64,000 nucleotides of DNA from Candidatus Nitrosymbiomonas proteolyticus (lineage in GTDB: Bacteria; Armatimonadota; Fimbriimonadia; Fimbriimonadales; Fimbriimonadaceae): contig AP021858.1 of NCBI GenBank assembly GCA_017347465.1, forward strand, positions 868,001 through 932,000. The letters are read 5' to 3'. The number at the start of each line of letters is the position of its first letter. The stretch's first letter is position 1. The translations under genes and the position numbers were made by a program. Below the pieces are notes generated by a model that was not told where the DNA came from, did no database searches, and worked only from the letters and a program-made list of their open reading frames with translations. Positions 10,988-40,213 of the stretch are shown here, in pieces.

Positions 10988-10992
10988 AACAT

Positions 10993-22673: not shown

Positions 22674-22932
22674 AGTTGTTCTCAATCGCCGCAATGAGCA
22701 GTGATGCGGGCCGACGAGCGGCTCGAAGCGGCAGCCATTCTAACTGCTGAGCGATCCGATCGTGCGGATATCGCTCCACCAAGTTTTGAGCCTTTCGAAG
22801 GCCAATGCCGACGCGCACGAGGTCAAGTGTCAGCTCTTCGGCGTCCGTGAGAATGGCTTCATCTGGACTCAATCGCCGCTTATGACTCTGTTGCTTTGGG
22901 ATCAACTCACCGATGGGTTCAAGACGGCTCAT
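22645..22932 (-). CDS. replication-initiator C-terminal-type domain protein
   Basis: A 95-residue protein. The second half (LVRVGIGLRKAQNLVERYPHDRI, EWLPLRAARRPASLLIAAIENNYDPP) follows the pattern found at the C-terminus of many plasmid and element replication initiators, in which an 'RYP..RI' helix is followed by 'R.P..LL..AI..nw.pP'. Here it is a free-standing protein. The start ATG overlaps the stop of the Mrr-like gene by ATGA, and the end overlaps the start of the winged-helix gene. A replication role is inferred from this pattern and from the neighbour. Confidence 0.6.
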   Translation of the reverse strand: MSRLEPIGELIPKQQSHKRRLSPDEAILTDAEELTLDLVRVGIGLRKAQNLVERYPHDRIAQQLEWLPLRAARRPASLLIAAIENNYDPPVYAKG

Positions 22933-23570: not shown

Positions 23571-23983
23571 CAGTTCAAACCCTCGAACTCTGCGACGTCA
23601 CCGGTCCACTTCCCCGGTTGGACATGCGACCATTCGTCCTTCAACGTGCCATCGGCGTGGAACGCTCGTTCGGGCATACAGCCAGCGCAGCCGACGAGCT
23701 GGCACACGAATGGAGTCTTGTAGGTTCCGTCCTCCGAAACAATCTCACGAGTCCCCAACCGACGCGCGATCTGAAACTCCAGCTGAGAAACGATCCGCTT
23801 GAGCGTGACGTACATGGGGCTCGACTGGCCATGCGTCAAATGGCAAATCGTTGACTTCGCGACCCCTGCATCTTTAGCCAGTCTCGACGTTCCCCGAAAA
23901 CTATATCGACTCGTATGAGCCATGATCGCCGCGATGCGATTGTGACAACGGACCGGACCGGACGTGCTTGATTTGTTCTTCAT
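23570..23983 (-). CDS. helix-turn-helix protein with C-terminal Cys cluster
   Basis: About 137 residues. The middle has a Cro/C1-type helix-turn-helix: SRLAKDAGVAKSTICHLTHG, continuing SPMYVTLKRIVSQLEFQIARRLG, as in DNA-binding regulators. The C-terminal part has CQLVGCAGC followed by a Trp/His-rich stretch, a possible zinc site. The start at 23983 is chosen because residues before MKNKSSTSG are not protein-like; the frame extends to 24019. It is coupled to the Mrr-like gene by TGATG. A regulator of the leftward operon is inferred. Confidence 0.65.
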   Translation of the reverse strand: MKNKSSTSGPVRCHNRIAAIMAHTSRYSFRGTSRLAKDAGVAKSTICHLTHGQSSPMYVTLKRIVSQLEFQIARRLGTREIVSEDGTYKTPFVCQLVGCAGCMPERAFHADGTLKDEWSHVQPGKWTGDVAEFEGLN

Positions 23984-24050
23984 GCTCAGAGCGTGCCAAG
24001 GCAGGCAAGGTGGCCGCATTTAGTGAACATTAGACCGAACATTTACCGAA

Positions 24051-24611
24051 CTATCGTAAACGCTTCGCCAGCCGACGCGCAACCTGGTTTTCGCTAACGG
24101 GAAGATCCCTCACCATCTGGGACACTACCGTTGAGGCGTTGACAAGTTTTAGTCGGTTCGCGCGAACAAAGGCACGAGCATAGTGCGGTGACTTGAAGTC
24201 GAACGAGTGAATGTTGCCAGCTGACCCAAGGTAGATCAGGGCGCGAGACACCGTGCAGCAAGTTGCTCCGGATCGAATCCGAGGGATCAGCAGAGCGGTC
24301 ACAAGCATGGTTAGCAGAATAGACCCGGCGAAGAATCCGAAGCCGAGCCGTGCATCGATAAGAATTGCGTACAGGAGCGAACAAAAACCGAGCAGTGCGG
24401 CAATGGACAATCCTACGATGAAAGCTCGATCAGTGCGAGCGACGTGGCGACGGCATTCTTGGCAATACGGCACGTCCCATGCCCAACCACGAGTGCGAGA
24501 GTTCCGATTCCGCTCGGTGCCACTAAGCGTGATCGTTGTTTCAGGAAAGCCGCCACAACAGGCACACTCACGGGGAAAGACGAACTGTTTACCGGCCGCT
24601 TCAATGCGCAT
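24051..24611 (-). CDS. zinc-ribbon membrane protein of unknown function
   Basis: A 186-residue protein. The N-terminal 55 residues have two Cys pairs, RECACCGG and PYCQECRRH, forming a likely zinc ribbon. Two hydrophobic segments follow (FIVGLSIAALLGFCSLLYAI, FGFFAGSILLTMLVTALLI), then a cytoplasmic domain with VSRALIYLG and the repeated FDFKSPHYARAFVRAN pattern. This resembles bacterial proteins with a zinc ribbon before two membrane helices. ATG at 24611 is used because the open frame beyond it overlaps the neighbour's 3' end and does not look like protein. A terminator and the SLOG gene lie upstream. No specific function can be assigned. Confidence 0.55.
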   Translation of the reverse strand: MRIEAAGKQFVFPRECACCGGFPETTITLSGTERNRNSRTRGWAWDVPYCQECRRHVARTDRAFIVGLSIAALLGFCSLLYAILIDARLGFGFFAGSILLTMLVTALLIPRIRSGATCCTVSRALIYLGSAGNIHSFDFKSPHYARAFVRANRLKLVNASTVVSQMVRDLPVSENQVARRLAKRLR

Positions 24612-24670
24612 GCAACGACCGTGCTCCGCCTTTCTTGACGGGGAAAACAGTGAGGCTTCAAACGAACAAA

Positions 24671-24688
24671 GCCCCTCAAACGAGGGGC
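24671..24688 (-). terminator. intrinsic terminator after the SLOG-like gene
   Basis: GCCCCT and AGGGGC form a 6-bp stem with a 6-base loop, five bases after the SLOG-like stop codon. On the minus strand it is followed by TTTGTTCG, a weak T-tract. Partial termination would lower expression of the genes further left. Confidence 0.5.
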
Positions 24689-24693
24689 GGGTC

Positions 24694-25281
24694 TTAGAAC
24701 TCGGGATTGCCGAACAGGCAGCCTCCAAGTTCTTGGTTGACGATCTTGCGGACGAGGCGATCCACAGTTGGGTTGTGCCGAGCGAACGTGGGCAGCTTCT
24801 CTGGTGCACGACGCGACACCACCAGGTCCGTTCGCTCATCCCACTGGTACCGCCAGAGCCTGGCAGCGCGGAAGGGTTCCTGCTTCAGGTCACCTCCCAG
24901 GTGATACTTGAAGCCTCCAGAAACCACCAATATCCGAGGAGCGCCCCACCTCAAAGGAACGACTGCCGCCCGCATGTGAGCCGGGCTATGAATGCCCGTG
25001 ACGAGGACCTTGCCCTCAAGAATGGATTGCTCTGCCATTCGCTCGATCTCAACGAGTTCGTCGGGGGCGTGATCCGGGGGACCACAGGCCTGCGAGATCA
25101 TGGCCATGTTGACACTCAGCAACCTGACGTTGCCGTAGAGCCACAGACCAGCAGGCTCATAGAAGCCTGGTTCCTGATCAAAGGGCGCTGATCGAGTGGG
25201 GACCTCAATCGAAAGGGACGATTTCGTGGCCGATCGGCCTGGAAGCGTCGAAGCTCCCGCTCCGACGGCGGTTCGAGACAT
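24694..25281 (-). CDS. SLOG/DprA-like Rossmann-fold protein
   Basis: A 195-residue protein whose middle (about residues 50-130) follows the nucleotide-binding pattern of DprA/LOG-type proteins: YGNVRLLSVN at the first strand, a helix, then GKVLVTGIHSPAHMRAAVVPLRWGAPRILVVSGGF. In DprA the 'G.vvvSG.A.GiD..aH.gAl..gG.tiaVl' segment holds the same place. The C-terminal part (RLWRYQWDERTDLVVS) is basic. SLOG domains occur in DNA uptake and in ligand-sensing defence proteins. Here it is the first gene of the leftward operon; AGGAGGT lies six bases before the ATG. Ligand and role unknown. Confidence 0.6.
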   Translation of the reverse strand: MSRTAVGAGASTLPGRSATKSSLSIEVPTRSAPFDQEPGFYEPAGLWLYGNVRLLSVNMAMISQACGPPDHAPDELVEIERMAEQSILEGKVLVTGIHSPAHMRAAVVPLRWGAPRILVVSGGFKYHLGGDLKQEPFRAARLWRYQWDERTDLVVSRRAPEKLPTFARHNPTVDRLVRKIVNQELGGCLFGNPEF

Positions 25282-25444: not shown

Positions 25445-28327
25445 ATGCAACTCACGGACTACCACGCCGCGTTCTTCGCGCACGAACTCACCAAACGCAG
25501 CGCTTCAGACAGCGTTGAAAAGCTCGCGCACGTACTGGCGGACGCTCAGGTAGACCTCAACCCCCACCAGGTCGAGGCGGCACTCTTCGCGTTTCGAAAC
25601 CCGTTCTCAAAGGGAGCGATTCTCGCAGACGAAGTCGGACTGGGAAAAACCATCGAGGCAGGTCTCCTACTTGCTCAAAACTGGGCCGAACGCAAACGAA
25701 GGTTGCTTGTCATCGTCCCCGCCAACCTGCGGAAGCAGTGGAGTCAGGAACTGGCCGACAAGTTCTACCTACCTTCCGTGATCCTGGAAGCGAGGAGCTT
25801 TAATGAAGCCATCGCGAAAGGCAATCTCAACCCGTTCAAGCAAGACGCCATCATCCTTTGCTCGTACCAGTTCGCCAAGGCAAAAGAGCCCTACGTCAAG
25901 CAAACCGATTGGAATCTCGTTGTGATCGATGAGGCCCACAGGCTTCGGAACGTGTACAAGGGCACGAGCAAGATTGCCCTTTCGATCAAGAACTCTGTTG
26001 CGCCGTTTCCGAAGGTTCTGCTGACCGCTACACCGCTCCAGAACAGCCTGTTGGAACTGTACGGCCTGGTCAGCATCATCGATGACTACGCTTTTGGCGA
26101 TCAGAAGAGCTATCGCCAACGGTTCACGAGGCTCGGTGAGAACGAGGACTTCGCCGAACTCAAAGAGCGGCTTGCTCCGATTTGCAAGCGAACGCTGAGA
26201 CGGCAGGTTCTGGAATATGTCAGATACACGAACCGCCACGCTTTGGTGCAGGAGTTCGTGCCAACCGAAGAAGAACAACAACTCTACGATCTCGTTTCCG
26301 AATACCTGCAGGCGGACAAACTTTACGCTCTCCCGGCCAGTCAGCGAGCGTTGGTGACTCTCATTCTTCGAAAGCTTCTCGCCTCGTCAACCTACGCCAT
26401 TTCAGGAACCCTTCAAAGCTTGATTGATCGCCTGTCAGAAGCCGAGGCCGACGCTGAACGAGTTGAAGCCGCTCCAGAGGACTTGCCGAGCGAATGGGAA
26501 GACTACGACGAGCTGGCCGATGAATGGAGCGAAGAGGACGAAGAAGGGCCAAAGAAGGGTGAGCCGCTGACTCCCGAGCAGCTGGCTGAATTGAAGATGG
26601 AGAAGGCTAAGCTCCAAGAATTCTGTGCCCTGGCAAAGTCCATCGTCAAGAACTCCAAAGGCGAGGTTTTGCTCACGGCATTACGCCGAGGTTTCGACGC
26701 GGCCGCAAAAGCTCAGCAGGAAAGAGGAGGCGCCACGCTTCAGCAGAAGGCCGTCATCTTCACCGAATCCAGGCGAACTCAGGAGTATCTGTTCCGCATC
26801 CTTGGCGAGACCGAGTTTGCTGGCAAGGTCATGCTCTTCAACGGCACCAACAACGACCAACTTTCCAAAGACATCTATCAGGAGTGGCTGACGAAGCATG
26901 CGGGCACCGACAAGATCAGCGGATCGAAGTCCGCCGATATGCGCCAAGCGTTAGTCGAACACTTCCGCGACAACGCTTCGATCCTGATTGCAACCGAGGC
27001 GGCCGCCGAGGGAATCAACCTGCAATTCTGCAATCTCGTGGTCAACTACGATTTGCCCTGGAACCCTCAACGAATCGAGCAGAGGATCGGGCGATGCCAC
27101 CGATACGGTCAGAAGTTCGACGTGGTTGTAGTCAACTTTCTGAACAAGAGCAACGCCGCTGACGTGCGAGTGTACGAATTGCTTGACGAGAAGTTCAAGC
27201 TCTTCAACGGCGTCTTCGGAGCTAGTGACGATGTGCTTGGCGCGGTTGAATCAGGCGTGGATTTCGAGAAGCGAATCGCCTCGATCTATCAAAAGTGCCG
27301 GACGCCTCAGCAGATCGCGTTTGAGTTCGATGAACTGCAAAGGGACCTCGAAGGCGACATCGAGGCGACCCAGCGAGACGCTCGCGAGAAGCTCCTCGAC
27401 AACTTCGATCAGGAAGTGGTCGAGAAGGTTCGTGTCGAGAGCAAGGACGCACTTGACCGATTCCAGCACCAACTGTGGCTCTTGACGAGACACGTCCTCA
27501 AAGACCACGCATCGTTCGAGGACGCGACTTTCTCATTCCAGCTGGTCCAGAACCCATTTCCGCCCGAAACTATCCACGCGGGGCCATATCGCGTTGGCAA
27601 GAACGTGGAGAATGCCAACACCTACCGCGTGGGTCATCCGCTCGCTCAAAAAGTGATTACGTCGGCCACGTCGAAAGAGCTACCCGAAGCTGAGGTCACG
27701 TTCGACTACACCGGCTCAAGGAAGAACATTGCGATCCTGAACGACTTCACCGGGAAGTCGGGGTATCTCGCCTGTGTCAAGCTGACGATGACCGCTTTGG
27801 AAACTGAGGATCGCCTCGTGATGATTGGCGTCACCGACGATGGTGAAGTTCTCGATGAGCACCAAGCCCGTCGCATGTTTGACCTTCCGGCCTCAGTCGG
27901 CGGACGTACGGCGGTGCCGGAGACGATCAAGAACCATCTCGAAGGCTCGGTCCAGATCAAGAAGAAGATCATTTTGGACGAAGCCTCCGTTCGCAATGGA
28001 TCTTGGTTCGACACGGAAATGGAAAAGCTCGACCACTGGGCCGAAGATCGTCGTGCAAGTCTTAAGTCGGAACTTGCCGAGCTTGACGCGAACATCAGGG
28101 AATCCAAGAAAGCTGCTCGATTGGCCGGAAGCCTGCCGGAAAAGCTGGAGAAGCAGCGGCAAGTTCGGAACCTCGAAACAAAGCGCGAAGAAGCGTGGAG
28201 AGCCTACGACCAGGCGAGTCGAGAAGTCGATCAGCAGAAGGATTCGTTGCTAGACGAGATCAGCAAGCGGCTTGAGCAGCACATCCAAGAGGACCGTCTC
28301 TTCACGATCCGCTGGCACGTGACCTAG
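25445..28327 (+). CDS. SNF2-family helicase of a restriction/defence operon
   Basis: A 960-residue superfamily 2 ATPase. The N-terminal core has the Q-like LNPHQVEAALFAF, Walker A DEVGLGKT (62-69), DEAH (162-165), TATPLQN and the R-rich KRTLRRQV. An acidic linker lies at about 340-380. The second core has KAVIFTESRRTQEYL, ATEAAAEGINLQFC and QRIGRCHRYGQ. The last ~300 residues form a helical, coiled region. This architecture (RapA/DISARM-type SNF2) accompanies restriction modules in many defence islands. It faces the type III-like operon across the toxin-antitoxin pair and ends 4 bases inside the antitoxin gene on the other strand. A GGG lies four bases before the ATG. A role in DNA translocation or remodelling during defence is inferred. 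Confidence 0.88.
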   Translation: MQLTDYHAAFFAHELTKRSASDSVEKLAHVLADAQVDLNPHQVEAALFAFRNPFSKGAILADEVGLGKTIEAGLLLAQNWAERKRRLLVIVPANLRKQWSQELADKFYLPSVILEARSFNEAIAKGNLNPFKQDAIILCSYQFAKAKEPYVKQTDWNLVVIDEAHRLRNVYKGTSKIALSIKNSVAPFPKVLLTATPLQNSLLELYGLVSIIDDYAFGDQKSYRQRFTRLGENEDFAELKERLAPICKRTLRRQVLEYVRYTNRHALVQEFVPTEEEQQLYDLVSEYLQADKLYALPASQRALVTLILRKLLASSTYAISGTLQSLIDRLSEAEADAERVEAAPEDLPSEWEDYDELADEWSEEDEEGPKKGEPLTPEQLAELKMEKAKLQEFCALAKSIVKNSKGEVLLTALRRGFDAAAKAQQERGGATLQQKAVIFTESRRTQEYLFRILGETEFAGKVMLFNGTNNDQLSKDIYQEWLTKHAGTDKISGSKSADMRQALVEHFRDNASILIATEAAAEGINLQFCNLVVNYDLPWNPQRIEQRIGRCHRYGQKFDVVVVNFLNKSNAADVRVYELLDEKFKLFNGVFGASDDVLGAVESGVDFEKRIASIYQKCRTPQQIAFEFDELQRDLEGDIEATQRDAREKLLDNFDQEVVEKVRVESKDALDRFQHQLWLLTRHVLKDHASFEDATFSFQLVQNPFPPETIHAGPYRVGKNVENANTYRVGHPLAQKVITSATSKELPEAEVTFDYTGSRKNIAILNDFTGKSGYLACVKLTMTALETEDRLVMIGVTDDGEVLDEHQARRMFDLPASVGGRTAVPETIKNHLEGSVQIKKKIILDEASVRNGSWFDTEMEKLDHWAEDRRASLKSELAELDANIRESKKAARLAGSLPEKLEKQRQVRNLETKREEAWRAYDQASREVDQQKDSLLDEISKRLEQHIQEDRLFTIRWHVT

Positions 28328-29412
28328 TCATCCCTAGTCGCGACCCACTGGAACCTGATCTTGAGGTTGTTGAGCGCGCTCCAATCAATCAGCCTTTCTT
28401 TCTGAAGCCGACCTACGACGATCCCGGGAGAAATTCCAAGCGACTCTGCAAAGTTTCTCACGCTCGGTCCATCAAACGAGCGTTCGGCAATAAATTCCCT
28501 GAACGCAGTCGGTGGAATCAAAAGATTTGCCGCGAACTCATTCGCCTCCGCTTCCTCAACACTGTTATTGCCGGGCGTCTCCAAGAAAACCGCGCGCTTT
28601 TGATGCTTGAGGATATGGCACGATTCATGGAAGATTGTGAACCAAAAGTGGTCGTTTGTTTTGTAAAGCAGGGTGATCTGGATGACGGCCTTTGAGCCAA
28701 GCCATCGTGTTGCCCCAGAGACCCCCATTGAGGGAAGTTCGGGGATGAACAAAAGCGCGACTCCCGCATCAGCAAAGAGCTTGCGCAGTATCGAGTCGAA
28801 CTCGTCAGGAGTCTGGCAGGTCAACTTCCTAGCCTCCAAAACAGCCGCTTCGAAGTCCTTTTCAGAGTATTGGCCTGTCTCCACATCGGCGGCTTCAATT
28901 TCGCCCTGACGAAGCCAAGCGGCTATCAAGTTGTCCTTGGCTAAGTTCGACGCCGCAGACCTTCGATACATTGGACTCAGGGTTGCTTGCCAGGCAATGA
29001 ACGCAGAGCGATCCACTACACCAAAGAACTTGAGCAGGTTAAAGAACTTCTCACGCGCGTTGGTTGTCGCAGGAATCCAACCGTGTTGAGCCATCCTCGC
29101 ATAGGGAAAGGATCGAGCCCACGCGAGGTCATCCTCGGCGGGCTCAGCAATGCTTTGTCGCGTGAGCCACTCGCGATAGCGAGCTTCGCGACTGTTCCAG
29201 AAGTGAGCAGGGGTTCCAAGGACCCGCTCAAGGTCCAATGCGAGATCAGGCGTGATTGGGGCCTTCCCGTTCACGATCTGACTCAAGTTTTTGTCAGACC
29301 GTCCCAACTTGATGCTCAGCTCCTTCTGCGTAATGCCGCGCTCATCCAGGAGATCACTTAAGGTGTCTCCTGGCGGTGAGGCCCAGTTCGGTGCAAAGGC
29401 GGTCTTATTCAT
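28324..29412 (-). CDS. higA: HigA-like antitoxin fused to ImmA/IrrE metallopeptidase
   Basis: A 362-residue protein. The N-terminus is an XRE helix-turn-helix of HigA type (LSDLLDERGITQKELSIKLG, then KNLSQIVNGKAPIT and ALDLERVLGTPAHFW). The C-terminal ~150 residues are an ImmA/IrrE zinc peptidase: the HExxH motif reads FHESCHILKH, and the third ligand region is EEAEANEFAANLLIP. HTH-ImmA proteins act as regulators or antitoxins that cleave or release repressors. It follows the toxin gene by 27 bases, the usual toxin-first order of hig systems, and its end overlaps the convergent SNF2 gene by 4 bases. Autoregulation through the palindromes before the toxin gene is inferred. Confidence 0.88.
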   Translation of the reverse strand: MNKTAFAPNWASPPGDTLSDLLDERGITQKELSIKLGRSDKNLSQIVNGKAPITPDLALDLERVLGTPAHFWNSREARYREWLTRQSIAEPAEDDLAWARSFPYARMAQHGWIPATTNAREKFFNLLKFFGVVDRSAFIAWQATLSPMYRRSAASNLAKDNLIAAWLRQGEIEAADVETGQYSEKDFEAAVLEARKLTCQTPDEFDSILRKLFADAGVALLFIPELPSMGVSGATRWLGSKAVIQITLLYKTNDHFWFTIFHESCHILKHQKRAVFLETPGNNSVEEAEANEFAANLLIPPTAFREFIAERSFDGPSVRNFAESLGISPGIVVGRLQKERLIDWSALNNLKIRFQWVATRDD

Positions 29413-29439
29413 GATTCTCCAATGTTTGTGTGTCGTGTC

Positions 29440-29772
29440 TCAGTGGTAGTCGATGACTTCAAGGATTTGGATCGAGCGAACTTGGTTCCAATCGATTCCC
29501 CCGTCGTCCTTCAACGCGGGTGGTTCATCCGCGGGCTGAAAGATCAACCGGTAGTTTGCGTTGAGCCGAACCGAAAGCTGACCCTTCCGGTCTCCGACCA
29601 ACTCTTCGCACCGCCCTGCCAAGAGGCGCATTTCCTCCAGCACTTGCACAGCGTCGAGATCGGCCAAGCGCTTTTGAAGCGCCTTGGCTCGTTCCGCGCC
29701 GTAGGCCCTGACCATGCTAGCGTGGTCATTCATGTCCCTTTCGAGCCGGTCCGTGGCAAAACTGATGTCCAA
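29440..29772 (-). CDS. higB: HigB/RelE-type toxin
   Basis: A 110-residue protein of the RelE/ParE superfamily, mRNA interferases that act on ribosomes. Matching family stretches are ISFATDRLERDMND, YGAERAKALQKRLADL, the ELVGDRKGQLSVRLNANYRLIF strand pair and a C-terminal IQILEVIDYH. The start is TTG at 29772: an in-frame stop lies 27 bases upstream, no ATG or GTG is available before residue 14, and the residues from there match the family's usual beginning. It precedes the HigA-ImmA gene and follows two palindromic operators. A safeguard for the neighbouring restriction module is a reasonable inference. Confidence 0.85.
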   Translation of the reverse strand: MDISFATDRLERDMNDHASMVRAYGAERAKALQKRLADLDAVQVLEEMRLLAGRCEELVGDRKGQLSVRLNANYRLIFQPADEPPALKDDGGIDWNQVRSIQILEVIDYH

Positions 29773-29788
29773 GTCACCATTCCCGCAC

Positions 29789-29813
29789 TCTCTTTACGTT
29801 CTCGGTAAAGAGA
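29789..29813. promoter_or_regulatory. operator palindrome 1 of the toxin-antitoxin promoter
   Basis: TCTCTTTAC and GTAAAGAGA are perfect reverse complements across a 7-base spacer, just upstream of the TTG start of the toxin. It lies downstream of a candidate -10 box (TACACT on the minus strand, 29823-29828). HTH-antitoxin repression at this site is inferred. Confidence 0.65.
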
Positions 29814-29834
29814 ATGTTTCGCAGTGTACCCACC

Positions 29835-29846
29835 ATTTACGTAAAT
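29835..29846. promoter_or_regulatory. operator palindrome 2 (ATTTACGTAAAT)
   Basis: A perfect 12-base palindrome that shares the TTTAC/GTAAA half-sites with palindrome 1 and lies near the -35 region of the leftward promoter. Its position between the divergent toxin and small-protein/mod genes means that a bound antitoxin could control both directions. Confidence 0.6.
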
Positions 29847-29925
29847 CGGTCGGGTATTCTGAATCTGGAGACGACGGCGATGCAAGTCAGGAATTTTTGA
29901 CCGGCACGCGCGTCGACTGAAACGT

Positions 29926-30108
29926 ATGGCAAAAAACACAGGAAACGGGTTCAGGCGTGGCTCGGTCGACAATCGCACGCAGGTTCAGAATCCTAAGAAT
30001 GGGAACTGGACCAAGCGGGACACGGAGACCGGTCGCTTCATGGACCAGAAGCAAGATGGCGAACCCTTCAAGGGCGTAGCCAAGGAAGTAGACGACCGAC
30101 GCGACTGA
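29926..30108 (+). CDS. conserved 60-residue small protein of a restriction locus
   Basis: A 60-residue, highly polar, basic/acidic protein: residues 12-25 read GSVDNRTQVQNPKN, and 29-45 TKRDTETGRFMDQKQDG, then PFKGVAKE. The pattern 'GxxxxxxVxNRxQxxNP' plus 'xKRDxxTGRFMDxKxDGxPFKGVxKE' is one I recognise as recurring in small unannotated bacterial proteins; I cannot give a function. It is the first gene rightward of the divergent control region, 116 bases before mod, so co-transcription is probable. Conserved charged residues and no hydrophobic core suggest a nucleic-acid- or protein-binding peptide. Start ATG at 29926. Confidence 0.7.
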   Translation: MAKNTGNGFRRGSVDNRTQVQNPKNGNWTKRDTETGRFMDQKQDGEPFKGVAKEVDDRRD

Positions 30109-30224
30109 GTGGCGGCATGACCGGAGCCAAGCCCAAACCAGGCTTGGCTCTACTGAACAAAGAAAAACCCTTGCGCGAACCAGTAGAATCCGGTTCAATC
30201 AGGCTGAAAGGAACTCAAATCCAC

Positions 30225-32174
30225 ATGAACGAACCCAACGCCAACACCGAAGTTGAGAAGCTCGACCTGAGTTCGCTGGATGTTGCTGAGCTGAAGCGCC
30301 AGAAGCTGGTTGAACTCTTCCCTGAAGTCAGAACCGAAGGCGGGAAGATCGATTTCGAGCGCTTGAAGGCGGCGCTGGGCGAGATGGTGGATGCAGGCCG
30401 TGAGCGGTATGGTATGAACTGGCCGGGAAAGGCTGAGTGCATGCGAACGATCCAGGCTCCGAGCATGGGCACGCTACTCCCGATGCCCGACGAGAGCGTG
30501 GATTGGGACACGACCGAGAATGTGATCATCGAGGGCGACAACCTGGAGGTGCTCAAGCTGCTTCAGAAGAGCTACCTCGGCAAGATCAAGATGATCTACA
30601 TTGATCCTCCGTACAACACCGGCAACGACTTTATCTACCCGGATAACTACTCTGAGTCGCTCCAGACCTATCTTGAGTACACGGGGCAGCTTGACGCCGA
30701 AGGACGACGATTCACCACAAATGTGGAGTCCGACGGCCGCTTTCATTCGAAGTGGCTGAACATGATGTACCCCCGCCTCTACTTGGCCCGGCAGCTCCTA
30801 AGGCCCGACGGAGTCTGTTTTATCAGTATCGACGATACCGAAAGTGTAAATGTGAAGGCTGTTTGCGATGAGATTTTTGGCGCGGAGAATTTTGTCGCTG
30901 ATCTGACCGTCGTCAACAACTTGAAAGGGCGCAATGACAAGCGTTACATCGCTCGAGCAAACGAGCGACTTTTCATGTATGTAAGATCAGATGAGTTTGA
31001 GGAAGCTGGTCTGGAGATGTCTGAAAAACAGATCGGTGAATATTCCGAACAAGACGCTGTTGGACGATACCGACTACTTGGTTTGCGAAAACGAGGTGGA
31101 GCTGACACCCGAGAGCTTCGCCCAAAGATGTTCTACCCAATATATGTCAGCCCTCTTACGGGTGAGGTTTCGTTGATTCAAGATTCACACTTCTCGGTTG
31201 AGGTCTTGCCAAGAAAGTCTGACGACTCAGACGGTTGTTGGCGATGGGGTCTTGAGACCACACGTAATCGGCTAGACCAGCTTTACGGTCGAAAGGTAGG
31301 AGGCTCAAGTAAATTCGATGTTTTCGAAAAGGACTACCTTGAAACGGATGGCGAATTGAAACGCATAAAGCCAAAGTCGGTTATGAGTGGCACGGCATAC
31401 TCAACAGATGGCGCAACAAAGGCGTTTCGCGAACTGATGGGCGACATTGAGTTTTCAAATCCAAAGCCAGTACCCTTTCTCTCAGATCTGATCAGCTATG
31501 CAACTAATCCGACAGAGAATGCAATAGTTCTAGATTTTTTTGCGGGGTCAGGGACCACGGGGCACGCAGTGTTTGAGTCCAATGCACGAGATGGCGGCAA
31601 CCGGCGATTTGTGCTCGTTCAACTCCCAGAGCCGGTTGAGGACACACGGATTTCTTCAATTGCTAGCGTCACAATCGAGAGGGTCAGGCGCGCAGCTAAG
31701 CTCTTCGCGTCGAAGATCGAGCAAAGTCTATTGGATGACACGTCCGCGGTGGACCTAGGGTTCCGAGCATTCAGGCTCGCGCCATCAAACTTTATCCCAT
31801 GGGACGGAACCGCATCCAACGACGCCGAACAGTTGGCCAAGCAGCTGAAGCTAGGCATTGACCACACCCGAGGTGATCGCACCCCACAAGACCTACTCTT
31901 TGAAGTCCTCCTCAAGTCTTGGGGCGAACCCGCGCTCAGCCTGCAAGTTGGTGAGGAGGCTATCGAGGGCGTTCGCGTTTTCTCCATTGCTGAAGGCGCA
32001 TTCCTTATCTGCCTTGAGGAGAAGGTCACTCTTGAGTTCATTCGCGCCCTCGCCGCTCGAAAGCCGGATCGCGTCGTCATGCGCGAATCCGCCTTCGCCG
32101 GCAACGACCAGCTGAAGACCAACGCCGTCCAGACTTTCAAGTCTCAAGGCGTGACCAGCTTCAAGGTGGTGTGA
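30225..32174 (+). CDS. mod: type III-like adenine-specific DNA methyltransferase (Mod)
   Basis: A 649-residue N6-adenine methyltransferase of the beta class. The catalytic DPPY motif is IYIDPPYNTGNDF (127-136), and the AdoMet-binding FAGSGTTGHAV lies at about 438-447, the order typical of Mod subunits. An N-terminal helical segment (ELKRQKLVELFPEV) also fits Mod. The central ~200 residues (about 215-430), including the target-recognition region, are encoded by DNA visibly richer in A/T than the flanks. ATG at 30225 is chosen for AAAGGAA upstream; the frame extends to 30117. The TGA overlaps the KilA-N start (TGATG). It modifies host DNA and gives Mod-Res complexes their sequence specificity. 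Confidence 0.93.
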   Translation: MNEPNANTEVEKLDLSSLDVAELKRQKLVELFPEVRTEGGKIDFERLKAALGEMVDAGRERYGMNWPGKAECMRTIQAPSMGTLLPMPDESVDWDTTENVIIEGDNLEVLKLLQKSYLGKIKMIYIDPPYNTGNDFIYPDNYSESLQTYLEYTGQLDAEGRRFTTNVESDGRFHSKWLNMMYPRLYLARQLLRPDGVCFISIDDTESVNVKAVCDEIFGAENFVADLTVVNNLKGRNDKRYIARANERLFMYVRSDEFEEAGLEMSEKQIGEYSEQDAVGRYRLLGLRKRGGADTRELRPKMFYPIYVSPLTGEVSLIQDSHFSVEVLPRKSDDSDGCWRWGLETTRNRLDQLYGRKVGGSSKFDVFEKDYLETDGELKRIKPKSVMSGTAYSTDGATKAFRELMGDIEFSNPKPVPFLSDLISYATNPTENAIVLDFFAGSGTTGHAVFESNARDGGNRRFVLVQLPEPVEDTRISSIASVTIERVRRAAKLFASKIEQSLLDDTSAVDLGFRAFRLAPSNFIPWDGTASNDAEQLAKQLKLGIDHTRGDRTPQDLLFEVLLKSWGEPALSLQVGEEAIEGVRVFSIAEGAFLICLEEKVTLEFIRALAARKPDRVVMRESAFAGNDQLKTNAVQTFKSQGVTSFKVV

Positions 32175-33040
32175 TGAGGAAGTCCAAGCAAGCCAAAATC
32201 AGCGTGGCCGGGACCGATATCTCGGTGGTCAGCGACGCCCGGGGCGACTACATCTCGCTGACCGACATGACCCGCGGGTTCGACGGCGGCCCCGCCCTGA
32301 TCGAGCAGTGGATGCGGGCCAAGGACACGATTCTGTTCCTGGGAGCCTGGGAGAGCTTGCACAACCCCAATTTTAAACCCCACGAATTCGGGGGGTTTAG
32401 GAATGAGGCTGGCCGAAATAGCTTCTACATGTCACCCAAGAAATGGGTCGAGGCAACCGGAGCCATCGGGATCTACTCCCAATCGGGTCGCTATGGAGGC
32501 GGGACTTTCGCACACCGCGACATCGCCTTTGAGTTCGGAACTTGGCTGAGCCCAGAATTCAAGCTTTACCTAATCAAGGAGTTTCAGCGGCTCAAAGAGG
32601 CGGAAGCCGAACGGCAGAGCCTGGAATGGAACCTCAACCGCTCGCTTTCAAAGCTGAACTACCGAATCCATACCGACGCAGTCAGGGAGCACCTGATTCC
32701 GCCGAACTTGACCAAGCGGCAGGAAAGCTTCGTCTATGCGGACGAGGCTGATCTGCTGAACGTGGCTCTCTTTGGCAAAACGGCCAAGCAGTGGCGCGAC
32801 GCAAACCCTGAGCTCGAAGGAAACATGCGGGATTACGCGACGACGGCTCAGCTTCTCGTCATGGTGAACCTGGAGTCGCTGAATGCTCAGTGGGTGCGAG
32901 ACGGCTTGAAGCAACCCGAACGATTGCGACGACTGCGCGAAGCAGCAGTCTCACAACTCAAATCTCTCGGCTCCATCAGCCTGCGGTCGATTGACCGACC
33001 GCCAAGCCTCCCGATGAGGGACGACGAGGGGGAAGAGTGA
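32174..33040 (+). CDS. KilA-N domain protein of the restriction operon
   Basis: A 288-residue protein. The N-terminal ~125 residues are a KilA-N DNA-binding domain: YISLTDMTRGF, WMRAKDTILFLGAWE, and YMSPKKWVEATGAIGIYSQSGRYGGGTFAHRDIAFEFGTWLSPEFKLYLI, the diagnostic part of the family (given here in pieces). A helical segment (EAERQSLEWNLNRSLSKL) and a C-terminal domain with RQESFVYADEADLLNVALFG and MVNLESLNAQWV follow. It is coupled at both ends: TGATG with mod and GTGA with res. Such proteins are found between mod and res in other genomes and their task is unknown; DNA binding is known for the domain. A regulatory or target-scanning subunit is inferred. Confidence 0.85.
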   Translation: MRKSKQAKISVAGTDISVVSDARGDYISLTDMTRGFDGGPALIEQWMRAKDTILFLGAWESLHNPNFKPHEFGGFRNEAGRNSFYMSPKKWVEATGAIGIYSQSGRYGGGTFAHRDIAFEFGTWLSPEFKLYLIKEFQRLKEAEAERQSLEWNLNRSLSKLNYRIHTDAVREHLIPPNLTKRQESFVYADEADLLNVALFGKTAKQWRDANPELEGNMRDYATTAQLLVMVNLESLNAQWVRDGLKQPERLRRLREAAVSQLKSLGSISLRSIDRPPSLPMRDDEGEE

Positions 33041-36036
33041 GGCTTCAATTCGACCCAAACCAGCCGTTCCAGCGTGATGCCGTGGCCGCCGTCGCGGACC
33101 TCTTTGATGGCCAAGAGCGCGGAGCGCCGGAGTTCTCGGTCATCAAGACCAACTATGCGGGCGAGCTTCTGAGCGGCATGGTGATGACGGAGACCGGAGT
33201 CGGCAACCAACTCCTGCTACCGGACGACCGACTTTTGGCCAACCTACGATCCGTCCAAGAGCGGTTCGACATCGAGGTAGATCCAAACTCGACTTTGGCT
33301 GCATGGGAGTTATTCGATACCCCGGCCAACGTCAAACGACCGTGCCCGCACTTCTCGATCGAGATGGAAACCGGGACCGGCAAGACCTACGTGTACCTGC
33401 GCACGATCTTTGAGCTTTCCCACCGCTATGGATTCCAGAAGTTTGTGATCGTGGTTCCCAGCGTCGCGATTCGAGAAGGAGTTCTGAAGAACCTGGAGAT
33501 CACGGCAGACCACTTCCGGGCGCTCTACAACAACCTACCCTTCGAGTGGTTTGTCTACGACGCGAAGAAGGTGAACCGCCTTCGACACTTCGCTACGAGC
33601 AACACGCTCCAGATTCAGGTCATCAACATCGACGCGTTCCGCAAAAACTTCTCCGACACGGATGATGACAAAAAGTCGAACGTGATGTACAAGCGGCAAG
33701 ACCGACTTGGCGATCACATGCCGATCGAGTTCGTCCAAGCCGCGCGACCCATCGTGATCATCGACGAGCCCCAGAGCGTGGACAACACGGACAAGGCTCA
33801 GGAGGCGATCAAGGCGCTGAACCCGCTGATGACGCTTCGCTACTCCGCGACCCATCGCAATCCGTACAACTTGGTATACCAGCTCAATCCCGTTCGAGCA
33901 TTCGAGTTGCGCTTGGTCAAGCAGATCGTTGTCGCCAACGTCGAATCGGAGGACGCGGCCAACGAGCCGTTCGTCCGAGTCGAATCCATTGAGTACAAGA
34001 AGGAATACAAAGCAAAGCTCCGGATGTTGGTCAAGACCGCCGACGGGCCGAAGGAGAAGTCTGTTTCCGTCAAGCCCGGCGACGACCTGTTCTACAAGTC
34101 CGGCGAGTTGCACCACTACCAAGACGGTTTCCGCATTGCCGATCTTTCCGCCGAGCCAGGTGACGAGCACATTCGATTCAGCAACGGACGCCGACTCGGG
34201 CTGGGCGAGGAAATGGGCGGAGCCCGGTCTGACGTATGGCGAGTGCAGATCAAGAAGACGGTGGAAGAGCATCTGAAGAAGGAGGTCAAGGTTCGCGAGC
34301 GCGGCCTCAAAGTGCTTTCGCTCTTCTTTATCGACAAGGTCGCCAACTACCGAGACTATGACGACGACGGCAAGCCGATCCAGGGCAAGTTCGCCCAGGT
34401 CATCGAGGAGGAGTTGGCAGCTTTCGCCAACGACCCGCGATTCGCATCGCTGGAGTGGTTGAAGTTGCCAGTTGGCCAGCTCCACAACGGCTACTTCTCA
34501 GGCGACCGTAAGAAGCGAAAGGACGGAACCGAGGAAACGATCTGGAAGGATACGAAGGGCTCAACGGCGCTCGACGACGATACTTACAACCTGATCATGA
34601 AGGAGAAGGAGCGTCTGCTCGACATGAACGAGCCACTCCGATTTATCTTCAGCCACTCTGCCTTGCGTGAAGGATGGGACAACCCCAACGTCTTCCAAAT
34701 CTGCACTCTTAACGAGACCCAGAGCACCATGAAGAAGCGCCAGGAAATCGGGCGGGGCCTTCGATTGCCTGTTGACCAGACCGGTGCGAGAGTCTTTGAT
34801 GACTCGATCAACAAGCTGTACGTGATGGCCAACGAGAGCTACGAAGCGTTCGCCAAGGCGCTGCAAACCGAATACGAAGAGGACTGCGGAGTCACGTTCG
34901 GCAAGGTGCCGATCACGGCCCTCGCCAAGCTCACTCGCGTCATCGACCATGAGGAGAAACCCATCGGTCGAGCCGAGGCGGAGGCGATTCGAGACCTTTT
35001 GGTCGAGCAGAAGATGATTGACGTTCAGGGCCGTATCCAGAAGGCATTCGATCCTCGAAGTCCTGGCTTCAAGTTGGAACTACCCGAGGATAAGGCCGAA
35101 CTGACTTCGGCAGTCGTGGACCTGCTGTCGAGCTACCAGATCGAGCACCACATCCAGCGTGAGAAAGACGAGCGGGTCAACAAGCTGAAGAAGCAGGTAT
35201 TGCTCACGCCCGAGTTTGAAGAGCTTTGGACGAGGATCAAGCCGAAGACGATGTATCGCGTTGAGTTCGAGACCGCCGACTTGGTCGCCCGAGCCGTTGC
35301 CGAAATCAAACGCATGCCCAAGATCGAAAAGCCTATCCTGCGCGTGACGGCCGGAGTGCTTGGTGTGGAGAAATCGGGCGTCACCGCAAAGGGAATGAGC
35401 GTGGCCGAAGAGACGCGCGAATACGGCGCACGACCGCTACCGGACATCCTTGGCTACCTCCAGAACGAAACCGAGCTGACCCGTTCAACACTGGTGGAGA
35501 TCCTCACGAAGTCCGACCGCTTAACCGAGTTTTTCAACAACCCTCAGCGGTTCATGGACCAGGTTGCTCGCATCCTAAAATTCGAGCTGCATCGAATCTT
35601 AGTTGACGGCATCAAATACGAACGCATCGAAGGCACGGGCTCCGACGCTGCTTGGGACCAGATGCTCTTCAAGAACGAGGAGTTGGTCAACTATCTCAAG
35701 GCGCTGGAAGTGAAGAAGTCGGTTTACGACTACGTGGTGTATGACTCGGAAATTGAACGGGAGTTTGCCGAACAGCTTGATCAGCGCGACGACATCAAGC
35801 TTTTCGTCAAGCTTCCGGGTTGGTTCAAGGTGGACACGCCTGTGGGCGAATACAACCCGGACTGGGCCATCGTGAAGCACGACACATCGACGATCTATTT
35901 GGTGCGGGAAACAAAGGGAACCCGCGACTTCCTGAAGCTGCGATCAACGGAAGCGGACAAGGTGCGTTGTGGCAAGCGGCACTTCGAGGCTCTAGGCCAG
36001 GACTTCAAGGTCGTGGTGACGGCGGGTGAGGTGTAA
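33037..36036 (+). CDS. res: type III-like restriction helicase-endonuclease (Res)
   Basis: A 999-residue superfamily 2 helicase with a nuclease end. Walker A is METGTGKT (110-117), the Walker B is IIDEPQSVD (about residue 243-250), motif III-like ATHRN follows, and the second core has FIFSHSALREGWDNPNVFQIC and RQEIGRGLRLPVDQ. Near the C-terminus the PD-(D/E)xK nuclease is visible: EYNPDWAIV (about 937-945) and YLVRETKGTRDF (about 953-964). This is the Res arrangement. It starts with GTG overlapping the KilA-N stop by GTGA and ends 2 bases before the Shedu-like gene. It cleaves unmodified DNA together with Mod; ATP-driven translocation is known for the family. Confidence 0.93.
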   Translation: MRLQFDPNQPFQRDAVAAVADLFDGQERGAPEFSVIKTNYAGELLSGMVMTETGVGNQLLLPDDRLLANLRSVQERFDIEVDPNSTLAAWELFDTPANVKRPCPHFSIEMETGTGKTYVYLRTIFELSHRYGFQKFVIVVPSVAIREGVLKNLEITADHFRALYNNLPFEWFVYDAKKVNRLRHFATSNTLQIQVINIDAFRKNFSDTDDDKKSNVMYKRQDRLGDHMPIEFVQAARPIVIIDEPQSVDNTDKAQEAIKALNPLMTLRYSATHRNPYNLVYQLNPVRAFELRLVKQIVVANVESEDAANEPFVRVESIEYKKEYKAKLRMLVKTADGPKEKSVSVKPGDDLFYKSGELHHYQDGFRIADLSAEPGDEHIRFSNGRRLGLGEEMGGARSDVWRVQIKKTVEEHLKKEVKVRERGLKVLSLFFIDKVANYRDYDDDGKPIQGKFAQVIEEELAAFANDPRFASLEWLKLPVGQLHNGYFSGDRKKRKDGTEETIWKDTKGSTALDDDTYNLIMKEKERLLDMNEPLRFIFSHSALREGWDNPNVFQICTLNETQSTMKKRQEIGRGLRLPVDQTGARVFDDSINKLYVMANESYEAFAKALQTEYEEDCGVTFGKVPITALAKLTRVIDHEEKPIGRAEAEAIRDLLVEQKMIDVQGRIQKAFDPRSPGFKLELPEDKAELTSAVVDLLSSYQIEHHIQREKDERVNKLKKQVLLTPEFEELWTRIKPKTMYRVEFETADLVARAVAEIKRMPKIEKPILRVTAGVLGVEKSGVTAKGMSVAEETREYGARPLPDILGYLQNETELTRSTLVEILTKSDRLTEFFNNPQRFMDQVARILKFELHRILVDGIKYERIEGTGSDAAWDQMLFKNEELVNYLKALEVKKSVYDYVVYDSEIEREFAEQLDQRDDIKLFVKLPGWFKVDTPVGEYNPDWAIVKHDTSTIYLVRETKGTRDFLKLRSTEADKVRCGKRHFEALGQDFKVVVTAGEV

Positions 36037-36038
36037 GA

Positions 36039-37205
36039 ATGGCCAAGGCAAAAGCCAAACCAGCTGAGATCTTCCACGAGGTCAAGATCGCCGGTAAGAA
36101 CTTTAGCTCATTTGCTAACCCTGTCGTTTATCTTGAGGCAGACCTCAAGACTGAGTTTGAAAAGAAGGGGAAGGACGGGCAAACGAGGCTACAAAGACTG
36201 GAGAATGCGACCGCGATTCGAGGGTTCAAACACTTATATGAAAAGACGCTTGGGATCGGAAAGTGCAAGCGGCTCATTCTCACATCAAAGGCAACGAAGC
36301 TCGACGGTGATGACCTACACCTGAACGTCGATGAGTACTCAAAATACGGTCAGACTACGTTTCTTGGCTTATATCGAGAGACAGGATTGACAGTCGCAGA
36401 AGGCTACCTCGCAAGTTCGCTTCCTGCCTCCTTCCCGGCGAAGAGCACATCACTAAGCGAAAAGGAGGCGAAGAAGGCAACCGCCAATGTGAATGCGGTC
36501 ATTGATCGCACTGCGAAGAATTCTAAGGGCGTTGGAAAGATTGCCAAAGCAACAGCCGATGCTCTTAAACAGGCTAAGCAAGATAGCCTGGAACTCAAGA
36601 AGCAAGTTGCTGATCTGCGGGCTCTGCTAGATGCCTCGAAACTGAGTCTGTACGAACAAGACTTGGAGGAGTTCAAGCTGCGCTTGACCAAGAGTTACAA
36701 GGAAACCTCCGGGCGAGGTCATTGGCAAGGATGGTTCCGAGGGCACAGCTGGGTTCTGGGTCCGAATTACCTAGAGCCGATCGAAAAGTCAAAAGTTGGT
36801 TTTGAACAGATTCCGGACTTCATCTTGCCGACTCTCGACGGATTTGCTGACATTCTTGAGCTGAAGCTTCCCAATCACGAGGTCATCAAACAAGACGCCA
36901 GCCATGCAGGTTCATACTTCTGGAGTTCGGATGCTTCTAAGGCGATTGGTCAAGCCTCAAATTACATTCATGAAGCAGAGGACAATCGATTGAAGCTCAA
37001 AGAGAAACTCTCCGAACTCTTAGGGATTGAACTGGCATTTGTGAAGCCACGTGCATTCGTGATCATCGGCTCAGATTCCGACTGGTCGCCACAACAGCGA
37101 AAGGCCTTCCGAAATTTACGAGCGACCCTTCATGGCGTTGAAGTCTTGACTTATTCGGACATTCAGCGACGTGCTGAGGCACTGGTCAAACTACTTTCGG
37201 ACTAG
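36039..37205 (+). CDS. Shedu-type nuclease (DUF4263)
   Basis: A 388-residue protein. The C-terminal half carries the DUF4263 PD-(D/E)xK-type core: YLEPIEKSKVGFEQIPDFIL (about residues 247-266), then DGFADILELKLPN with the E-x-K, then a Lys-rich helix with SDASKAIGQASNYI and the strand PRAFVIIGSD. This pattern defines the single-gene Shedu anti-phage system (SduA). The N-terminal ~190 residues, with many Lys/Ala helices (KKATANVNAV, AKATADALKQAKQD), form a region that varies in the family and may sense the target. The gene begins 2 bases after res, so here it appears as a fourth component of the restriction operon. Local A/T content is higher than in res. Confidence 0.85.
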   Translation: MAKAKAKPAEIFHEVKIAGKNFSSFANPVVYLEADLKTEFEKKGKDGQTRLQRLENATAIRGFKHLYEKTLGIGKCKRLILTSKATKLDGDDLHLNVDEYSKYGQTTFLGLYRETGLTVAEGYLASSLPASFPAKSTSLSEKEAKKATANVNAVIDRTAKNSKGVGKIAKATADALKQAKQDSLELKKQVADLRALLDASKLSLYEQDLEEFKLRLTKSYKETSGRGHWQGWFRGHSWVLGPNYLEPIEKSKVGFEQIPDFILPTLDGFADILELKLPNHEVIKQDASHAGSYFWSSDASKAIGQASNYIHEAEDNRLKLKEKLSELLGIELAFVKPRAFVIIGSDSDWSPQQRKAFRNLRATLHGVEVLTYSDIQRRAEALVKLLSD

Positions 37206-37218
37206 TCGTGCCGGATAG

Positions 37219-39819
37219 CTAGCTTCTTCTCTTGCGGATTGCCGCCAGCCAGCCCTCCAAGGCTAGGATGTCTTGCTCAAGATCGGCTGGCTCAGGGAAC
37301 GGAGTATTTTCTGCACCCGCTTGGTCGTGGCCAGGAAGCCAGCGTGAGCACTTAGACATACCGTCGTTGAGTGCCTTGCAGTCATCGTCACTTATGTCTC
37401 CAAGGTGCTTTGCCCTATGTGTCTCAACGCTGTTTCGGTATCGCTCGATAACGCCGTTGAGCAGCACCTCTTCAACACCTCGCTCCCAAGCTTCTCGCAA
37501 TAATCCATAAATGTAAGAGGCTCTCTGCTCGTAACCTGCTTGATCGCCTTGCCGTGATAGCGCCGTAGCTTCCTGGTGCATTTGCTTCAGCATGCCTACC
37601 CGAGCACTTACTTTCATCGCAGCCCAGGGCAAGCGCTCCTCAGATAATCCCGAGCCATTTGATGTTCTCCTTAGGTATTGATGTTTAACTGCAACTCCCA
37701 TACGCTCAGCGTGGTCCGACAGCGACAGCAAGAAGACGATGTCATGAGTAAATATGATCACCTGTCTACTCTGGGATTCGGCCACAAGCCTGCCCGCGAC
37801 GTTCTCCCTCCAATGATGATCGAGTGAAGATACTGGGTCGTCAAAGAGGATCGCTGATCGATCATCGGCAGTGCTGAGTTCAGCGAAAAAGGACGCGATT
37901 GAAAGGCAACGGGCCTCACCCTCGCTCACTACTTTTGGAACCGAGACACCTGGAGCTCTCCGGAGTTGAAGTCGGTGGTATAGGGCACCCCGCGAACCAC
38001 CTGCCGCTACCATTTCCACTTCGACATGTCTGAAGTTCAATGCCTGGAGCTCAGCGGCGAAGCTCCCTGTCAACTGCTCTGTTACCGCACCCTTAGTCAC
38101 TTCGGTGCTTTTGCGAGTAATCGCATTTGTGTTCGTTTCGTCGAGGCACTCCCGATAGGCAGCCAAGCGCTTCTTCCGTTCGATTTCAGATACAACCGAA
38201 TCCGCGTGCTGCCCAAGTGCCCTGCGGGCTACAAGCTCCCGTAACTCTAAGTCGATGAGCCTTATCTTCTCGGAATGATCATCGCCGCGTAGCTCGGCGG
38301 CCCGGTTGAGCAAACTGTTCACGTGTTCGATCAGGTTCGCTGGTGCTAGGGGTAGAGCTGGCATCACTCCAGGCGGCGTGGACGCATCGGCAAGTGCATT
38401 CATTACCGCGACCCGTCTATGTTGCGCCGAATCGAGGTAGGCCCTGGCCGCCTCCGCTAACTCGGGCTCCTCAAGGTGAAGTTCATCTAGAACTTCTGCG
38501 GAAGCGTCATCGGTGATAATTAGATCGCGCACGGCGTTTTGACGCTGTAGGAATTCGGTGGAGGTTCGGTCTCGTTCGCGCTGAGACTCAGAGCTTAGAA
38601 AGTCGTGGAAACGTCTAAACCGATCAATTGCATCATCTCTTAGCAGCTGTTGGCAAAGTACGCATCGAGAGTTGACTTCGGTGACAGGGAATGCCTCATC
38701 TGGATAAGCATCCTCCCTCGAATACCTTTCTGCTGCCTTCCAAAGAGCGCGCCAAGCTTCAGATCCGGTATTTGGAAGCGGTTGGGCCTCAAATGCCTCG
38801 TGGCGCAGAGATTCGGCAATCATTTGGGCTTCCGTCATCTGCTTCTGGGCCACAAACGCCTCTTGGATCGAAGAATCGGACAAGACCTCGCCGCACACAC
38901 GAATCTTCTTCTCGATGCTTTTAACTCTGCCAGCACGGATTTCGAGCGCCCGAGCTGTCCTTTGTGGATCATCAGTGTGGAGATCCTTGAGCGACTTCTG
39001 CAGCTCCAGCATCCTGGCTAGCTCTTCATCGGATAGCGTCCCCAGTGTCCGCACGTCCTCTGGTTTTGTTAGAGATGTCAGTCTGGATAGCAGGTCATGT
39101 GCCCTTGTGCCCTCGGGAACCTCAGGAAGGTGGGCCACCACAGATTCCATTTGCCTTCGTTCCCCTTCAAGCACTCGACGTACCGCTTCGCATGCGTTTG
39201 AGAGTTTGTCAAAGAGGTCCAAGCCGAGGGGCCTATATGCAACATCGGTCTGTTCGGTTACGTACACGCTCGCGCAATGGTGGTCAAAGACACTCACGCG
39301 CGAGAGATCACGGTGAGGCGGATTATCATCATCCCAAATGTAGTCGTGATCTGTTTTGTCGAGGCTATACCTTATGGTGGCAGACGGTCTGCCAGGGACC
39401 CCTCCGTTGAGCACATTGCCAAGAATGTCCTCTGCACCCCTAGCGCGGCAGGCCCTCTTGAGAATGCGGGTATATCCCGACTTACCAGCTGCGTTCGCAC
39501 CGTAAACCACTGTCAAGCCTGGGCCGAACGCTACTGTTTGATTCTGAGCGAGAGCATTCACCCCACCGTTGTGAGTGAGGGATTTCATCTCGACCGGCGA
39601 CTCCGCAAGCCTTTCCTCTGGGAGATGATCAACGGCTAGGGGAACAGACTCTGCTGCCTCGACAAGGCCATGGTTCGCCTTGCATTGGGTGGCAAGATTG
39701 ACGATATCAGCATCGGAGAGCACTCCTGCAAGCACCAGGCGACGCAGGGCGTCGCGCTGCCAGTTGGGACGGTCTTCGGACCACTGGAGGATTTCTTTCA
39801 GTACATTCAACTTGGCCAA
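37219..39819 (-). CDS. zinc-hook AAA ATPase (RloC/AAA_13-like)
   Basis: An 866-residue ABC-type ATPase of the Rad50/RecF-like class. Walker A is VVYGANAAGKSGYTR (107-114), a CVLC (386-389) zinc-hook-like Cys pair sits in a helical middle, then SEGEARCLSIASFFAEL (signature), ILFDDPVSSLDH (Walker B) and IIFTHD (H-loop). The C-terminus has LREAWERGVEE, an R-x3-E pattern reminiscent of PrrC/RloC anticodon nucleases, with His residues 26 and 30 positions later, but the triad is not established. It starts with TTG at 39819. It is convergent with the Shedu gene (13 bases between stops) and is the last gene before the right att site. A phage-sensing ATPase is the inferred role. Confidence 0.82.
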   Translation of the reverse strand: MAKLNVLKEILQWSEDRPNWQRDALRRLVLAGVLSDADIVNLATQCKANHGLVEAAESVPLAVDHLPEERLAESPVEMKSLTHNGGVNALAQNQTVAFGPGLTVVYGANAAGKSGYTRILKRACRARGAEDILGNVLNGGVPGRPSATIRYSLDKTDHDYIWDDDNPPHRDLSRVSVFDHHCASVYVTEQTDVAYRPLGLDLFDKLSNACEAVRRVLEGERRQMESVVAHLPEVPEGTRAHDLLSRLTSLTKPEDVRTLGTLSDEELARMLELQKSLKDLHTDDPQRTARALEIRAGRVKSIEKKIRVCGEVLSDSSIQEAFVAQKQMTEAQMIAESLRHEAFEAQPLPNTGSEAWRALWKAAERYSREDAYPDEAFPVTEVNSRCVLCQQLLRDDAIDRFRRFHDFLSSESQRERDRTSTEFLQRQNAVRDLIITDDASAEVLDELHLEEPELAEAARAYLDSAQHRRVAVMNALADASTPPGVMPALPLAPANLIEHVNSLLNRAAELRGDDHSEKIRLIDLELRELVARRALGQHADSVVSEIERKKRLAAYRECLDETNTNAITRKSTEVTKGAVTEQLTGSFAAELQALNFRHVEVEMVAAGGSRGALYHRLQLRRAPGVSVPKVVSEGEARCLSIASFFAELSTADDRSAILFDDPVSSLDHHWRENVAGRLVAESQSRQVIIFTHDIVFLLSLSDHAERMGVAVKHQYLRRTSNGSGLSEERLPWAAMKVSARVGMLKQMHQEATALSRQGDQAGYEQRASYIYGLLREAWERGVEEVLLNGVIERYRNSVETHRAKHLGDISDDDCKALNDGMSKCSRWLPGHDQAGAENTPFPEPADLEQDILALEGWLAAIRKRRS

Positions 39820-40168: not shown

Positions 40169-40213
40169 ATCGCACTGCAGAGGTCGTGGGTTCGAATCCC
40201 ATCATCTCCACCA
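40169..40213 (+). other. att site 3: tRNA 3'-end fragment, right boundary
   Basis: Forty-five bases matching att sites 1 and 2 except for two changes that alter one T-stem base pair from A-T to G-C (GTGGG with CCCAT instead of GTGAG with CTCAT), so pairing is kept. No tRNA 5' half precedes it. It is the likely displaced original end of the chromosomal tRNA gene, while the other copies came with elements. Confidence 0.85.

Follow-up and report, generated by a model that had tools for sequence, protein, structure and literature searches.

The locus at positions 25445-39819 of the window (the whole 64,000-nucleotide stretch of Candidatus Nitrosymbiomonas proteolyticus DNA that was analysed) is best explained, with a probability of about two in three, as a type III restriction-modification (R-M) core of the form SNF2-Mod-(KilA-N)-Res, which has a dedicated SNF2 motor, gaps that serve as slots for cargo genes, and separate back-up defences beside it.

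Gene content and genomic setting

The preliminary description had read this locus as a composite defence island of named families. All nine open reading frames were found in place, appear intact, and belong to those families by their Pfam or PADLOC matches (Table 1), and the description of them as defence genes was correct. Intact motifs were present in SNF2 (Walker A, DEAH), Mod (DPPY and FAGSG, the FxGxG of a beta-type N6 methyltransferase), Res (Walker A, DEPQ, and PD..ETK, as in an SF2 helicase with a C-terminal PD-(D/E)xK nuclease), ImmA (HESCH), Shedu (D..ELK in the C-terminal SduA_C PD-(D/E)xK nuclease domain), and the ATPase (Walker A and one CVLC hook). The conserved part of Mod begins near 30225, later than the start of its reading frame, and this is the probable start of the protein because the homologue in locus L186 aligns from residue 37 onward.

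The close packing reported for Mod, KilA-N, Res, and Shedu was borne out, with 4-nt overlaps at the Mod/KilA-N and KilA-N/Res junctions and 2 nt between Res and Shedu. The accompanying idea of a joint operon may hold for the tightly spaced plus-strand genes from the 60-aa protein (p60) to Shedu but not for the HigB/ImmA pair and the ATPase gene, which lie on the opposite strand, so that the possible operon is SNF2 ... p60-Mod-KilA-N-Res-Shedu. Promoter and terminator scans of the locus performed no better than chance level, and no plasmid copy of the whole block was found by megablast.

Table 1. Features of the defence locus and of the element that carries it (window positions).
Feature	Positions	Strand	Basis
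Left attachment repeat, 45 bp, 3' end of tRNA-Ala(CGC)	11138-11182		Identical 45 bp at 1949-1993
Tyrosine integrase of element	11248-12459	+	Pfam Phage_integrase 8e-16
SNF2 (RapA/DrmD-like) helicase-translocase, core	25445-28327	+	Pfam SNF2-rel_dom 4e-33; PADLOC DrmD 683 bits; nearest PDB RapA
HigA/ImmA antitoxin-like (HTH + M78 peptidase), slot A	28324-29412	-	Pfam HTH_3, Peptidase_M78; PADLOC PD-Lambda-2_B 110 bits
HigB-like toxin, slot A	29440-29772	-	Pfam HigB-like_toxin 1e-8
60-aa protein (p60, PDC-S38), slot A	29926-30108	+	PADLOC PDC-S38 99 bits
Mod, type III methyltransferase, core; target recognition at about aa 276-550	30117-32174	+	Pfam N6_N4_Mtase; PADLOC MTase_III 594 bits
KilA-N protein (PDC-S22), slot B	32171-33040	+	Pfam KilA-N 3e-15; PADLOC PDC-S22 415 bits
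Res, helicase-nuclease, core	33037-36036	+	PADLOC REase_III 966 bits; Pfam ResIII, RE_endonuc; EcoP15I Res 4zcf 9.5e-56
Shedu (SduA) nuclease, slot C (after Res)	36039-37205	+	Pfam SduA_C 5e-19; PADLOC SduA 174 bits
AAA/SMC-like zinc-hook ATPase (PDC-S06), RloC/PrrC-like	37219-39819	-	PADLOC PDC-S06 771 bits; Pfam AAA_13 above cut-off
Right attachment repeat of element	40169-40213		Near-identical to 45-bp tRNA-Ala(CGC) repeat

The defence genes lie within a larger integrative element of about 29 kb (11138-40213), which was called because tRNA-Ala(CGC) repeats flank it at 11138 and 40169 and an integrase gene follows the repeat at 11138, the second of three in the window (the first is at 1949); the intact tRNA-Ala sits just upstream of the window. 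The element also carries resolvase and ArdC-like genes, so that it encodes an ArdC-like anti-restriction protein (17399-18313) alongside the restriction enzymes. A second element, for metal efflux (P-type ATPase, CusABC-like), lies in tandem at 1949-11138 with the same tRNA-Ala repeats as borders. G070, another genome of this species, has the tRNA and the metal-efflux element, but the 29-kb defence element was not found in it. The SNF2 gene is preceded by a minus-strand block (22929-25281) encoding an Mrr-like nuclease and proteins of 149, 262, and 195 aa. A similar minus-strand block precedes SNF2 in locus L012 (428-2743), with about 52-68% protein identity for the two genes compared, and the gene for the 195-aa protein also adjoins SNF2 in L043.

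Recurrence of the core and turnover of its slots

Res was used as the anchor for comparison. The genomic set, drawn from many phyla, comprised the best 80 of 584 confirmed relatives, and viral contigs contributed another 63. A same-strand SNF2 gene was present, across many phyla, in 52 of the 65 evaluable loci, or in 49 of 62 when three loci obtained by other routes than this set of 80 were left out; such co-occurrence counts are not phylogenetically independent events. On viral contigs, SNF2 accompanied 30 of 39 close Res relatives, and it was found upstream of none of 11 distant Res of the classic EcoP1/EcoP15-like type III. Within the window's phylum, the DrmD-like SNF2 (SNF2-A) occurred in 10 of 17 genomes with such a Res, whereas 14 of the 274 remaining genomes had it (Fisher 3e-8), and many SNF2-A genes outside those Res genomes adjoin type III Mod/Res of another subfamily. 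Since it is absent from 13 of the 65 loci, SNF2 is not essential for every Res of the clade.

The core takes two clade forms, one with SNF2-A, as in the window, and without DUF4391, and one with a second SNF2 type (SNF2-B) and DUF4391, which was found in 28 of 29 SNF2-B loci and in none of 23 SNF2-A loci. The Res tree has a branch with full support that separates the SNF2-A rows (24) from the SNF2-B rows (29), and within each clade the SNF2 distances correlate with those of Res (r 0.54 and 0.76). Together, these comparisons of sequences and gene order point to a stable partnership of SNF2 with type III Mod/Res rather than mere crowding in islands, with the proviso that the counts are not independent. 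DUF4391, the near-constant partner of SNF2-B (for example, L091, 7314-8087), was not mentioned in the open-access literature searched.

Of 75 loci, 28 have the Mod-Res gap filled, and of 50 loci, 23 have the SNF2-Mod gap filled; overlaps of 4 nt are common. HigB/ImmA, p60, and KilA-N are the window's cargo; elsewhere the cargo includes RhuM, Schlafen/AlbA, OLD/Gabija-like, GmrSD, PLD, YhcG, Fic-like, Abi_2, and ApeA-like proteins and a long Argonaute, and many of these genes fall in known or candidate defence families. Along the Res tree, cargo labels change about 25 times versus 12 for the SNF2 type. As a separate observation, the long prokaryotic Argonaute (pAgo_II, 642 bits; L114, 4472-6379) belongs to a type III R-M locus, where it fills the slot between SNF2 and Mod.

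Turnover was also seen between close relatives. In L012, from a genome of another genus (G061), SNF2, KilA-N, and Res are 96.9%, 97.2%, and 97.7% identical to the window's proteins. In Mod, most blocks towards the two ends show 80-100% identity, against 12-60% over about aa 226-550; this is the recognition region, which is unrelated in the two proteins and amounts to a swap of specificity. The HigB/ImmA pair was probably exchanged as well, since ImmA and HigB, flanked by 97%-identical genes, reach 67% and 55% identity. The DNA sequences are homologous up to 36043, just past the Res stop codon, and other genes follow in L012, where p60, Shedu, and the zinc-hook ATPase were not found; p60 was not found in L186 either. 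From its 97.2% identity, KilA-N was therefore inherited with the core in the window's lineage, and the other extras are exchangeable. In a genome of another family (G156), one contig carries SNF2 / ImmA-HigB / Mod and a second carries Mod / an 87-aa KilA-N remnant / Res, with SNF2 and Res each 75% identical to those of the window, and the two contigs probably join into one locus.

KilA-N protein and neighbouring modules

PDC-S22 KilA-N proteins are widespread and are mostly encoded by stand-alone genes on plasmids and viral contigs, for which reason a family specific to R-M loci was ruled out. Within the window's Res subfamily the gene was gained once, in three related loci, and because of this single gain and the reduction to a remnant in one locus it may be dispensable. 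A viral contig (L353, 7787-13534) carries Mod - KilA-N - Res of a type III subfamily distant from the window's, which is an independent use of the same Mod-Res slot; KilA-N has thus been taken up by type III loci repeatedly. In L354 the order is SNF2-B - KilA-N - Eco57I-type methylase. A union of KilA-N and RhuM in one family received no support from hhalign, with small alignments.

The AlphaFold2 model of the KilA-N protein (pLDDT 88.7) had Deinococcus DdrC as its best structural match (Foldseek 2.6e-4; Z 12.3, rmsd 8.9 A over 189 residues, about 15% identity), and its N-terminal part matched the Mbp1 DNA-binding domain (Z 7.8). As in DdrC, an N-terminal KilA-N/APSES fold is followed in the model by a helical bundle, and the two align over most of their length, although the genomic context differs and no sequence homology to DdrC was found at E 1 (phmmer against PDB sequences). 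DdrC binds and compacts damaged DNA, and if the modelled resemblance extends to function, the KilA-N protein may bind DNA breaks or ends here.

The zinc-hook ATPase is an independent neighbour of the core. It resembles the RloC/PrrC anticodon nucleases in its SbcC/Rad50-like ATPase, CxxC zinc hook, and C-terminal R-x3-E and H, but its gene runs against the operon and its catalytic domain is putative. The family conserves a CxxCQQ hook, and R-x3-E ... H is invariant in five members; the PrrC profile matches the ATPase part only, the C-terminal anticodon-nuclease (HEPN) part being without a profile match, and there were not enough viral homologues to build a useful model. Among the phylum's 291 genomes, 12 encode p60. 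It is encoded divergently from an HTH-ImmA-type gene in L036, L037 (within a type I hsd R-M locus), and L042, and because of this pairing p60 and ImmA may form a small module of their own. The window's HTH-ImmA protein corresponds to the PD-Lambda-2 B subunit, and neither HigB nor p60 had a PD-Lambda-2 profile match at E 0.01.

Proposed mechanism, rival readings, and known systems

The most likely role of Mod is to methylate one site and to recruit Res, and Res would then cut DNA carrying unmodified sites; Mod-directed methylation and Res cleavage at unmodified sites are established for EcoP15I. The RapA-like SNF2 protein most likely travels on double-stranded DNA, where it could clear bound proteins or help Res to reach a partner site. 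The SNF2-Mod, Mod-Res, and post-Res gaps would act as cargo slots with a gene content that varies from one relative to the next, with HigB/ImmA, p60, Shedu, and the RloC-like ATPase as separate back-up defences in or beside them. For KilA-N, as a two-domain, DdrC-like protein, the likeliest role would be DNA binding, perhaps at ends or nicks made by restriction, and one may speculate that it assists or reports on the restriction complex. A bolder version is less likely than not: SNF2-assisted type III systems would be a distinct unnamed lineage with two clades, the slots would provide plug-in back-up immunity, and in the window's branch the DdrC-like KilA-N protein would have become a fourth subunit that binds restriction-made breaks.

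That all eight families act together as one integrated system is very improbable, and the full machine was rejected. The tight packing from p60 through Shedu would fit it, as would the conserved order of six genes in G061 and, split over two contigs, in G156, but the complete set, whose repeated occurrence in one order the preliminary description had proposed as a check, was found in none of the best 80 of 584 Res relatives. What did recur was SNF2-Mod-Res across phyla and, in two further genomes (one of them from a different family of the phylum), SNF2/ImmA-HigB/Mod/KilA-N/Res with ImmA-HigB on the opposite strand. Moreover, a 97%-identical core lacks p60, Shedu, and the ATPase, these three were found alongside SNF2-Mod-Res in none of the compared loci outside the window, the TA pair was exchanged, and the ATPase and TA genes run on the other strand. 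At the other extreme, an ordinary type III R-M system with unrelated neighbours on a mobile element, to which SNF2 and KilA-N are not functionally linked, is unlikely. The tRNA-Ala-integrated element with its integrase, ArdC-like, and resolvase genes speaks for this reading, as do the several cargo genes unique to the window and the usual stand-alone state of KilA-N; against it, SNF2 keeps its strand and order in 52 of 65 relatives across phyla, its type follows the division between Res clades, its divergence parallels that of Res, and Mod, KilA-N, and Res are joined by 4-nt overlaps.

A further reading is compatible with the slotted SNF2-type III core but makes a stronger claim about the cargo, namely that the cargo, including KilA-N, is silenced by the restriction complex and fires an abortive response once phage anti-restriction proteins block that complex, as with PrrC and EcoPrrI. 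PrrC/RloC and RhuM do occur in R-M operons, and PrrC is released upon R-M inhibition (PMC3710099; PMC12707154), and the same kinds of cargo occupy the slots here. For these slot genes, however, the support is by analogy rather than direct, several cargo families (GmrSD, Gabija-like) are able to work by themselves, and KilA-N has no visible catalytic domain, so that this reading is possible but doubtful.

The slotted core, if correctly read, offers a simple guide to new defence genes, which could be sought between SNF2, Mod, and Res. Most work on type III restriction has dealt with SNF2-less EcoP1/EcoP15-like enzymes, and should an SNF2 motor be used by a large clade, which may include the majority of relatives of the window's Res, the usual sliding model would be incomplete there. 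No named system was found for the combination, in agreement with the preliminary description, and SNF2 plus type III Mod/Res plus three slots was not described as a system in the open-access literature searched, the coverage of which was incomplete.

The window shares with EcoP1I and EcoP15I the Mod motifs DPPY and FxGxG, the SF2 helicase and PD-(D/E)xK nuclease of Res, and the Res match to 4zcf, and differs from them in the SNF2 gene in front and the gene slot between mod and res. RapA-like helicases pair with methyltransferases in DISARM and ARMADA (PMC12458937), and the DrmD-like SNF2 and a methyltransferase in one operon recall class 1 DISARM and ARMADA (RapA/BrxHII-like helicase with PglX-like methyltransferase), but the partner here is a type III Mod/Res pair. 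No DrmB, DrmC, or YprA-like genes were seen in the locus, and DISARM was ruled out: the only gene with the MZB domain of DrmB (DUF1998/MZB) lies about 0.7 Mb away and the only DrmA match is the SNF2 gene itself. Embedded defence genes are known from R-M operons (PrrC in EcoPrrI; RloC and RhuM associations; PMC3710099; PMC12707154), as are type I R-M loci containing a second system inside (PMC12629846). The window resembles R-M loci with PrrC (EcoPrrI), RhuM, Fic, or RloC in having extra defence genes inside the operon and differs in its type III core, three slots, and other cargo (KilA-N, HigB/ImmA, p60). Defence genes embedded in R-M loci are thus known, and an SNF2-type III core with swappable slots is little described; if a large clade does use such a motor, RapA-like motors would connect type III R-M with DISARM, BREX, and ARMADA.
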